A DNA stretch of 64,000 nt from Arcobacter sp. CECT 8983. Lineage in GTDB: Bacteria > Campylobacterota > Campylobacteria > Campylobacterales > Arcobacteraceae. Location: the NCBI RefSeq assembly GCF_004118855.1, contig NZ_PDKF01000004.1, positions 769,604-833,603 on the forward strand, read 5' to 3'. Below are positions 8,899 to 12,137 of the stretch, piece after piece (within the stretch, counting starts at the first letter, position 1; each line of letters starts with the position of its first letter). A program made the position numbers and the translations under genes. The notes below the pieces were generated by a model, which did no database searches, was not told the origin of the DNA, and worked only from the letters and a program-made list of their open reading frames with translations.

Positions 8899-11199
8899 TT
8901 AAAAACTTTCCCAATCATCATTATCTTTTTTATCTTTGATAATTTCTTTTTGTATTGTTGGTTTTGATTTTTCTTCAGTCTCTATTTTCTTTTGATTTTT
9001 TTTAGCTTCAACATTATCTTTTCCTCTAAACTCTTTATTATCTGCATCACTTACTACAAATTTAGCTATTTGATCTGTTAAGCTTGCAATATCTTGTGTT
9101 TCAGATGCAATCATTGCATTTTCTTGTGTTTGCTGATCTAATTGGTTTACTGCAACATTTATTTGTTCTATTCCAGAAAGCTGCTCTTTAGAAGCACTCT
9201 CAACATCAGAAATTAGATTTGTTGTTTCTTGAATATCTTCATTTAATACTTTATATCCTTTAATCATCTCATCTGCAATATTTTTTCCATCATTAGCTTT
9301 ATTTGTTGCATTTTCTACTAATGATTTTATTTCACTTGCAGCTTCAGCACTTCTTGATGCTAAGTTTCTAACTTCTCCTGCAACAACAGCAAAACCTTTT
9401 CCTGCTTCACCTGCCGTTGCTGCTTCTACTGCTGCATTTAAGCTTAGAATATTTGTTTGGAAAGCTATTTGGTCTATTACAGTTATAGCCTCATTAATTG
9501 CAGTAACTTGCATATTAATATCTTCCATTGCAAGAGTTGTGTCATTTGCTAATTTTTCACCTTTACTTGCTGATTCAGTTACACCATCTGAAAGTCGAGA
9601 CATTTTTGCTATATTTTCTGTATTACTTCTAATATTACTCGTAATTTCTTCTAAAGCTGCTGCTGTTTCTTCAAGTGAACTTGCTGCTTCATTAGAACTT
9701 TCATTTAATTTATCTACATTATTTAGTAAGCTATTTGAACTTTTTTCTAGTGTTAAGCCATTTGATTTGTTTTCCACTAACATTTCAGTTATTGAATCAC
9801 CTAAACTATTTACTCCAGAGGCAAGTTTTAAAAGATGTTCTTTTAATCCTTTTGTAGATATTTTGTTTAAATAGTTATATGAAGAATATTCCTCAACAAT
9901 ATCTAATACATTATTAATATTGTTTTCTAAAGTATCTGCCATTTTATTTAGTACATCTTTTAGTTGCATTAATGCTGGATTTGATACATTTATATCTAAT
10001 CTTTGTATTAAGTCACCTTGTTCAAACTCCCCTAATACTGTTATCGTTTCATCTATTAATCTTCTATCTTCTTCTATTCCTTTTTTTGTTTTCTCTATAT
10101 TAATATTAATTATTTTTGTCATATTTCCAAATTCATCTGTGGAGTCAATTTTTATTAACTCCACTTCTGTTATTTCTCTGTTTAAGTATTTAAAGAAGTC
10201 TATTAGTCCTATTTGGAAAGTATTTAATAAGTTAGATATGTTTCTAGGTAATGCTATTGCTAGGAAAATTGCTAAAGTTAATATTATAATAGATATCGTT
10301 GTAATTAATGATTTCATATTTGAGTTTAATTGTTTAACTGCTGGTCCAATTAAATCTTGTTCTTCTTTTATTGATAATTTTACTTCTTCACTTAAATTTG
10401 CAATGACAGGACCAAGAACATTAAGTTTTTTTTCAAGTATTTCACTTCTTTTAAGAGTATCTTTATATATTAATGTAAGTGCATCTGTATATTTTTTTAT
10501 TAAATCAATTGCTTCATTAAGTTGAGTTATTCTTTTTGCACTTTGTATAGTATTTCTTAATTCAGTTAAATGTTTAGATAAAGATTTAAACTCACCTTCT
10601 ACTTTATTGTAGTTATTTTTAGATTCACTTTCTAAAAACTTCATTGTATAAAGTCGTGCTAATAGTAGACTTCTAATTGCACTACCAGTGAGATATGAAG
10701 CTTCATGGTCTTTTTCATTTTTTGTAGCTTCAAAAACAGAAGACAAAATAGTTTCAATTTTTTTGCCATTTACATTTAATATTGTATTTAATATTTTATC
10801 TTTATTTTTTGTATATTTTACTATTTCATAAAAGCTACTTTTATATGTAGTTAAATCATTTTCTATTTTTAACATATTTGTAGCTCGAGTTGGATGTTGA
10901 ATATCTTTTTTTGCTATATCAAGAAATTTTTGAGTTTTTTTGTAAGAGTCTTCGAAGCTATTTATATTTTCTTGCGTAGGTGTACTTAAGTATTTAACAA
11001 CACTAATTCTTGCCATTAGCATATTTGCTTGAATACGTGATGCAAGAGCAGTATTTTTTGCCATTTTTCTATATGAGTTAAATCCTTCACCTGCTTTATT
11101 GGTTGAATATATACTATAAGCTGCTAAGCAGATAATTAGACCAACTATTAAAACGAATGAAGATATTAATTTTGTTTTGATTGTCATATTTTTGAACAT
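8899..11199 (-). CDS. Methyl-accepting chemotaxis protein with long periplasmic sensor
   Basis: 766 residues. TM1 is at about residues 10-31 and TM2 at about 298-317. Between them a 265-residue all-helical periplasmic region has the size expected of a helical bimodular (HBM) sensor. HAMP-like and long coiled-coil segments lead to the conserved signalling tip ([34 protein letters not shown] is the hallmark region, quoted here only to locate it: [10 protein letters not shown] near residue 587). A Lys/Glu-rich linker ends in DDWESF, resembling the C-terminal WxxF pentapeptide that tethers CheR/CheB. The ATG lies one base after the stop of the upstream kinase-like gene, with its ribosome site inside that gene. 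The ligand is unknown. Confidence 0.93.
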
Positions 11200-11200
11200 A

Positions 11201-11902
11201 TTATCCCTTTTTTAATTCTTTAATATTATTTAAGTGAATACAAAACTCTATTCCATAAACACTTTTTCCTTTAAATTTAAACTTTTTATTTGCTATTTTC
11301 ATTTCTCCTTTATAATATTCTTCAATAATTTTTTTTGATATTTCAAGACTAATATCAAAAGGAATTTCATCAATAGTTATATTCGTGCTTTTAATTGAAA
11401 TTATGGTTTTATTTTTATTTCTTTGTGTATTTATTATTAAAAATTTAGATTCAGTTTTATTTTTTAAAATATTAGTTAATGAGCTCAAAATATATAGAAA
11501 TATTTGCGATAATTCATTCTCATAACCATAAATATAATTTGTAGTAGAATAATTAGTTTCAATAGTGATATCATGCTTTTTATAAGTAGAAGTATGTGAA
11601 GATATTATATTTTGTAAAGTATTATTAATATTAAACTGCTTAATTTCTTTTCCATTACATAAAAAAGTCTCAAAAGAGTTAATAGTATTTATTATTGATT
11701 TAATATTTTCATTTACTGAAACTAAAGTCTCATTATACATATCATCTGTAGCTAAACCAACTTCACTATTAACTAAAGTTCCCGATGACATAGTATATAT
11801 TTTATTTAATTTACTTTTCCAGTCATTTATTACATGTGTAATTTCATCAGCTAATTGTAAAATTCTATAATTTTTTTCAGTAAATAAATCATTTTTATTC
11901 AT
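11201..11902 (-). CDS. Degenerate histidine-kinase-like protein (pseudokinase)
   Basis: 233 residues, soluble. The first 95 residues match the dimerisation domain of the HQWRQPLN kinases common in Campylobacterota, but the box reads NDWKSKLN (residues 26-33), so the phosphoacceptor His is Asn. The ATPase part (about 95-230) keeps the N-box position ([15 protein letters not shown]) but without the key Asn, and it keeps the late [14 protein letters not shown] helix. The Gly-rich G1, F and G2 boxes that hold ATP are missing. It should dimerise but not phosphorylate. The downstream chemoreceptor starts one base after its stop, so their synthesis is coupled. A scaffold or adaptor role is inference. 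Confidence 0.6.
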
Positions 11903-11969: not shown

Positions 11970-11983
11970 TATCCTATAGGATA
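11970..11983. promoter_or_regulatory. XRE operator 1 (TATCCTATAGGATA)
   Basis: Perfect 14-bp palindrome at the -35 region of the leftward kinase-like/MCP operon. The same core occurs at 12120-12137, and half of it recurs at 12221-12231, all beside a small XRE regulator gene. Confidence 0.65.
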
Positions 11984-12119: not shown

Positions 12120-12137
12120 TTTATCCTATAGGATAAA
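12120..12137. promoter_or_regulatory. XRE operator 2 (18-bp palindrome)
   Basis: TTTATCCTATAGGATAAA is a perfect 18-bp palindrome. It sits about 22 bp upstream of the -10 (12159-12164) of the XRE gene, so it covers the -35 region and is well placed for autoregulation. Confidence 0.7.

Follow-up and report, generated by a model that had tools for sequence, protein, structure and literature searches.

The 233-residue protein encoded immediately before a methyl-accepting chemotaxis protein (MCP) gene of Arcobacter sp. CECT 8983 is a pseudokinase that is under selection yet dispensable and that descends from a soluble histidine kinase paired with a chemoreceptor. The gene was analyzed within a window of 64,000 nucleotides (contig NZ_PDKF01000004.1, positions 769,604 to 833,603), and the features of the locus are listed in Table 1. 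In sensing, the pseudokinase probably serves as a structural or docking component. In its fuller form, according to which a dead HQW-type kinase, descended from a soluble kinase standing before the chemoreceptor and probably XRE-controlled together with it, acts as docking partner of the receptor, we give this reading an even chance.

Table 1. Features of the pseudokinase-chemoreceptor locus (window coordinates)
Feature	Position	Strand	Remarks
Methyl-accepting chemotaxis protein, 766 aa, MCPsignal domain, C-terminal DDWESF	8899..11199	-	
Pseudo-histidine-kinase, 233 aa	11201..11902	-	DHp helices aa 9-47, 53-82 and lid-less CA-like domain aa 88-225, predicted
Degenerate phosphoacceptor box NDWKSKLN, aa 26-33	11804..11827	-	translation and alignment to HQW kinases
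Palindrome TATCCTATAGGATA, probable operator	11970..11983	.	67 bases before pseudokinase start
Palindrome TATCCTATAGGATA, probable operator	12122..12135	.	103 bases before XRE start
Divergent XRE/Cro-type HTH protein (HTH_3), 82 aa	12239..12487	+	conserved with the module

Both reading frames were as described in a preliminary description of this DNA, and the descent from HQWRQPLN-type kinases which it had proposed was confirmed by alignment and by matches in the same genome. The pseudokinase could be aligned to HQW kinases along its length. In this alignment the acceptor His is replaced by Asn (NDWKSKL in place of HQWKQPL) and the N-box Asn by Ser (ILSS in place of ILNN), G1 is lost (STNITI where HQW kinases have D-x-A-G-G-I), and a deletion has removed 17 residues from the F/lid region and the beginning of G2, in agreement with the lack of these boxes noted earlier. 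The end of the CA domain is retained, with the terminal G-x-x-F strand (YGIEF) and IIEE-x-x-x-GE. At the level of sequence, loss of catalysis is established for both the acceptor His and the ATP site. No match to HisKA or HATPase_c was obtained for the window protein in Pfam at E-values up to 10 (HMMER filters on), nor was a PAS or other sensor domain found (Pfam; the first long helix is predicted to begin at aa 9). Because 44 other places in the same genome match the pseudokinase at E <= 0.02 (best 2.6e-19), all of them inside open frames of at least 273 aa, its apparent kinase origin is no chance resemblance.

An AlphaFold model of the pseudokinase (pLDDT 81.4, pTM 0.65, from an input alignment of only 9 rows) consists of the two long helices given in Table 1 and a CA-like alpha/beta domain, and the DHp plus CA fold is thus retained by prediction. 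The nearest PDB structures in Foldseek were the HK853-RR468 complexes and the best match in VIA-align was the ThkA CA domain (Z 19.3, 2.1 A over 133 residues). DivL appeared in both lists (4q20, Z 16.1 in VIA-align), and the RetS-GacS co-complex 7n0e was among the VIA-align matches (Z 16.1, 123 residues aligned). Matches to all histidine-kinase structures were of similar strength, so that the fold is no specific argument for a DivL-like role.

The downstream gene carries an MCP signalling domain (PF00015, E 9.1e-39), and its C-terminal DDWESF is an xWxxF tail which we take to be CheR-tether-like. Such a tail is present in 10 of the 28 MCPs of the genome, the window MCP counted (one of these sequences has a masked end). 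The pseudokinase stop codon (11201-11203) and the MCP ATG (11197-11199) are separated by 1 base, and AAGGGA within the last pseudokinase codons is a plausible ribosome site for the MCP, as the preliminary description had stated. The translational coupling that it had proposed from this arrangement stands for the window but does not extend to the orthologues described below, in which the spacer, with the listed ATG as start, is 50 (G004), 20 (G010) and 70 bases (G048). Strict coupling as a general trait was thus rejected, tight coupling between pseudokinase and MCP being a local feature.

Intact pseudokinases were found, at E 1e-25, in 4 of the 104 family genomes: that of the window (G000), G004, G010 and G048, the last from another genus. 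The orthologues are 81%, 68% and 53% identical to the window protein, respectively. This count is a lower bound, since at most 27 candidates were scored per genome and the threshold misses short forms; two of these surfaced otherwise, in G015 through a profile search and in G047 through a palindrome search. All four intact copies stand before an MCP and have the 17-residue lid deletion in common, so homologues with comparable losses and a neighbour of the same type, which the preliminary description had proposed to look for, do exist. In the order given, the His position is occupied by N, N, N and A, the phosphoacceptor box of the G048 protein reading AECKNPL, and the residue at His+4 is S, T, T and N, as against Q in intact kinases and Y in G047. 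Pfam did not recognize a kinase domain in the G048 protein (E 0.01), and the gene surroundings of this copy are unlike those of the others. A chance ORF or sequencing artefact was rejected on account of the three further intact copies in other genomes. The phosphotransferases Spo0B and ChpT have a conserved His in the DHp bundle; a protein of this type was also rejected, as no His is invariant in the four-row alignment of intact copies.

An order-wide search of 398 genomes at E 1e-25, in which the best 7 candidates per genome were scored, gave a match in two genomes, G000 and G004, with G010 and G048 outside that draw. A six-row profile matched 44 of the 398 order genomes at E 1e-40; among the matches listed, the four module members scored 1e-100 or better and the rest 5e-51 and weaker, and these weaker matches look like ordinary kinases. 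Of eight loci revealed by scanning of genome contigs, one is a pseudokinase (L015), whose protein is identical to that of G010. A 170-aa ORF upstream occurs in 7 of 16 genus genomes, including three that do not have the module (G001, G005, G007). In G100 a stand-alone kinase-like ORF (L084:4970-5761; HATPase_c 6.1e-22) was observed with Asp at the acceptor His (TDQWKNPL); the ORFs next to it presumably resemble heme oxygenase and bacteriophytochrome.

The effect of selection on the pseudokinase was determined from pairwise dN/dS (Nei-Gojobori with Jukes-Cantor correction). For the whole gene dN/dS was 0.25-0.43, with bootstrap upper bounds of 0.40-0.62 at dS 0.37-0.94, indicating purifying selection and a preserved frame in the comparison across relatives that the preliminary description had suggested. 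The CA part (0.20-0.40, upper bounds 0.36-0.64) was better constrained than the DHp part (0.38-0.86, with wide intervals). For the latter the dN/dS interval stayed below 1 in the three between-genus pairs, and the within-genus values of 0.42, 0.86 and 0.52 (upper bounds 1.37, 2.62 and 1.30) were indistinguishable from 1, with few synonymous changes. Neutral simulation of the ORF, run without indels, introduced on average 5.7 stops at d 0.1 and 16.0 at d 0.45, and the frame remained open in 1 of 1000 runs at d 0.1 and in none of 1000 at each of four larger distances. These sequence comparisons demonstrate that the pseudokinase frame has been kept under purifying selection across two genera. Values for the MCP (0.15-0.47) and for the 170-aa ORF (0.12-0.31) show that the constraint on the pseudokinase does not exceed that on the adjoining genes. 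The constraint on the dead CA domain argues that this domain still does something structural. Over the first 85 codons (window 11648-11902) within-genus pS was 0.14-0.25 as against 0.35-0.51 later in the gene, which inflates dN/dS in this part. Recombination, or an element hidden in the DNA or RNA, may be the cause of the low pS.

Upstream DNA conserved in five genomes revealed the divergent XRE gene, which was absent from the preliminary description. Two exact copies of TATCCTATAGGATA, likewise missing from that description, lie between the pseudokinase and XRE starts, 0.07 matches being expected in the window with one mismatch allowed. The exact palindrome is present in 15 of the 104 genomes, and the reversed pattern, used as control, in 3. 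In 13 of the 15 an XRE homologue adjoins it (the exceptions are G067 and G072), and the pair therefore resembles a regulator and its operator, a putative assignment. XRE homologues as such are more frequent, with 54 of the 104 genomes positive at E 1e-12, and the homologue is frameshifted or truncated in G048 and G015. The modules of G006, G045 and G061 lack an exact copy and contain instead a palindrome that differs at one base. The divergent XRE protein probably controls the pseudokinase and MCP genes through the TATCCTATAGGATA operators. At five further loci (L169, L170, L171, L176 and L180) an XRE gene and an exact palindrome are found near other genes, with no kinase or MCP match in the stretch. 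The XRE frame shift of G048 (L014:8750-9020) lies near a run of ten A and may reflect sequencing error, phase variation or decay.

Homologues with intact His and ATP boxes at this locus would, according to the preliminary description, refute its reading. Such homologues were found in the equivalent module of G084 and G085, both of one third genus, whose modules contain kinases of 244 and 256 aa with intact HQWKQPL, N box, G1 and G2, in which HATPase_c was recognized by Pfam and which precede an MCP of like kind. A tree was built from 73 kinase rows: of 86 left after deduplication, 67 passed a motif and length filter, and six named rows were added. In it these two kinases and the four pseudokinases formed one clade with support 100/97. 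The tree alone would not be decisive because the pseudokinase stem is long (1.37); beyond it, the G084 and G085 loci have the XRE gene, the exact palindrome and the following MCP in common with the pseudokinase loci. Upstream of their active-looking kinases, G084 and G085 also have an extra degenerate CA-like ORF of 182 and 192 aa, respectively (L079:6971-7519 and L080:6795-7373), without DHp helix 1 and without a Pfam match.

Other genomes differ in what occupies the kinase slot. In G047 an ORF of 103 aa encodes only the DHp part, with N at the His position, the CA part having been lost, and G015, which belongs to the same genus as the window, has a broken kinase remnant with stops and shifts before an MCP that stays. 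Nothing recognizable is left in G045, in which one MCP is followed by a second. On the other hand, a 638-aa sensor kinase occupies the slot in G006, with a 4-base overlap with an MCP carrying a CZB domain, and G061 has a stand-alone kinase of 242 aa there, no MCP lying within the 8 kb examined. These two cases show that kinase, receptor and regulator are combined in other ways too. Since the gene is broken in G015, CA-less in G047 and missing in G045 and the MCP is kept, the receptor does not need the pseudokinase everywhere. The assumption that the gene is not decaying did not hold throughout: decay is real in G015 and possible in G047, in which the DHp part may be enough or decay may be under way, and the gene is therefore useful rather than essential. 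The preserved non-catalytic role that had been proposed is supported by selection and by the DHp-type fold, but the intact kinases of G084 and G085 and the decayed G015 copy mark it as a derived, dispensable state and not a fixed old component. Contacts of such an adaptor with the chemoreceptor, CheA or other kinases, as proposed in the preliminary description, are putative.

MCP sensor domains related to that of the window receptor occur in 13 of the 16 genus genomes, and at 18 places outside the module no small kinase ORF was found before them. In L143 a 906-aa sensor kinase gene lies 133 bases before an MCP with a related sensor domain. Response-regulator genes precede related-sensor MCPs in L141, L142 and L144, the first two also having a sensor kinase gene, and the L141 regulator combines Response_reg and Trans_reg_C. 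Near the four intact pseudokinases a BLASTP search with two receivers found no receiver-like ORF of at least 80 aa within roughly 4-7 kb on either side; in the positive control, L144, both receivers were returned.

The pseudokinase could be a decaying passenger, lost as a kinase from a kinase-receptor operon and retained as a late-stage frame that is kept for now by coupling to MCP translation. The graded series fits this explanation, running from the intact kinases of G084 and G085 through the four pseudokinases to the DHp-only, broken and missing forms of G047, G015 and G045, as does the DHp part, for which within-genus constraint was not demonstrated by dN/dS. However, the catalytic loss and the lid deletion are common to two genera, in which four frames are open at dS 0.37-0.94, the dN/dS upper bounds of 0.40-0.62 and the closing of simulated neutral frames argue for selection, and MCP spacing of 1 to 70 bases means that tight coupling is not general; we regard decay as an unlikely explanation of the intact copies. 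It is also improbable that the protein is a dedicated phosphatase, kinase-dead and only dephosphorylating a receiver (CheY, CheV or an orphan regulator) to set the output tone of the receptor. A precedent is BumS of Campylobacter jejuni, a cytoplasmic sensor phosphatase with no detectable autokinase activity and, like the window protein, a kinase-dead member of the kinase family (PMC11796366, in extract), and the residues at His+4 in the four intact copies, S, T, T and N instead of the Q of intact kinases, could be read in the same sense, since among tested HisKA kinases T/N at His+4 was the only feature required for the phosphatase reaction and for nothing else (PMC3510030, in extract; also CrdS). 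Nevertheless, the residue in the window protein is S and not T/N, that of G047 is Y, and HQW kinases are not classical HisKA. In addition, BumS carries a PAS domain for sensing and has BumR as its cognate regulator, whereas the window protein has no sensor domain and no receiver-like ORF nearby.

RetS, a non-catalytic histidine kinase, pairs with and silences GacS, and the DHp helices of the pseudokinase might pair with and silence an active HQW kinase in the same manner. The predicted DHp fold, the RetS-GacS co-complex among the structural matches and the 44 further kinase-like matches in the genome at E <= 0.02 would allow such inhibition. The closest kinase of the same genome is only 30% identical, however, the nine kinases of this genome that were included in the tree all fall outside the clade, and many histidine kinases match the model equally or better, so this explanation is very unlikely.

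For a docking partner of the receptor, the reading that we prefer, the DHp helices would form a dimer that could still dock another protein. The simplest candidates are a receiver domain (CheY or CheV, for example) and another HQW kinase, and the pseudokinase would couple the state of the docked protein to the co-expressed receptor without phosphate transfer. Contact with the receptor should be cytoplasmic, because the G004 orthologue precedes an MCP with an unrelated sensor half and a conserved signalling half (pN 0.50 and 0.08, respectively). By analogy, this docking model would join a DivL-like logic to a CetB-like gene arrangement. DivL of Caulobacter, which has Tyr at the acceptor His position, is likewise a kinase-like DHp-CA protein that lacks the acceptor His. 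It has been converted from a kinase into a sensor for a phosphorylated response regulator, binding DivK~P through a docking interface and having neither kinase nor phosphatase activity (PMC4211667, in extract). On the other hand, DivL has PAS sensors and acts in cell-cycle control, whereas the window protein is sensor-less, has its ATP lid deleted and has a chemoreceptor as partner. In the CetA/CetB system of C. jejuni a partner protein and an MCP are encoded and transcribed together (PMC2628428, in extract; CetA2/CetB2 are treated in PMC12442639, in extract); CetB is a PAS protein, whereas the window partner is a kinase relic for which spacing suggests co-transcription. The kinases of G084 and G085 have the same XRE-palindrome-kinase-MCP module, the same clade and a similar length, and differ from the window protein in the kept His, N box, G1 and G2 and in the extra CA-like ORF. 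A further-reaching proposal, which we find possible but on balance doubtful, is that a kinase-receptor operon under one XRE regulator has turned its kinase into a non-catalytic receptor subunit, a two-component docking surface wired into the chemoreceptor array, with the DHp-only form of G047 as the minimal such adaptor.

In Arcobacter, cheY genes adjoin chemosensory genes such as a chemoreceptor gene (PMC9321776, an extract on Campylobacterota chemosensory evolution), and the A. butzleri genome encodes 29 MCPs and 37 sensor histidine kinases (PMC2147049, in extract). Among the matches listed in the open-licence PMC literature, as far as their extracts go, no pseudo-histidine-kinase beside a chemoreceptor was recognized, and the extracts of PMC11796366, PMC3510030, PMC2628428, PMC12442639, PMC4211667, PMC9321776 and PMC2147049 contain no description of the pseudokinase-MCP pair or of the XRE-palindrome module. 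Single examples of non-catalytic histidine kinases are known, such as DivL, BumS and RetS; here active-looking, dead, truncated, broken and missing forms occur in one module. The series is a clean case of a signalling enzyme becoming a pseudoenzyme and, since the module and the kind of chemoreceptor stay the same, it makes directly testable what a kinase can do for a receptor without phosphate.
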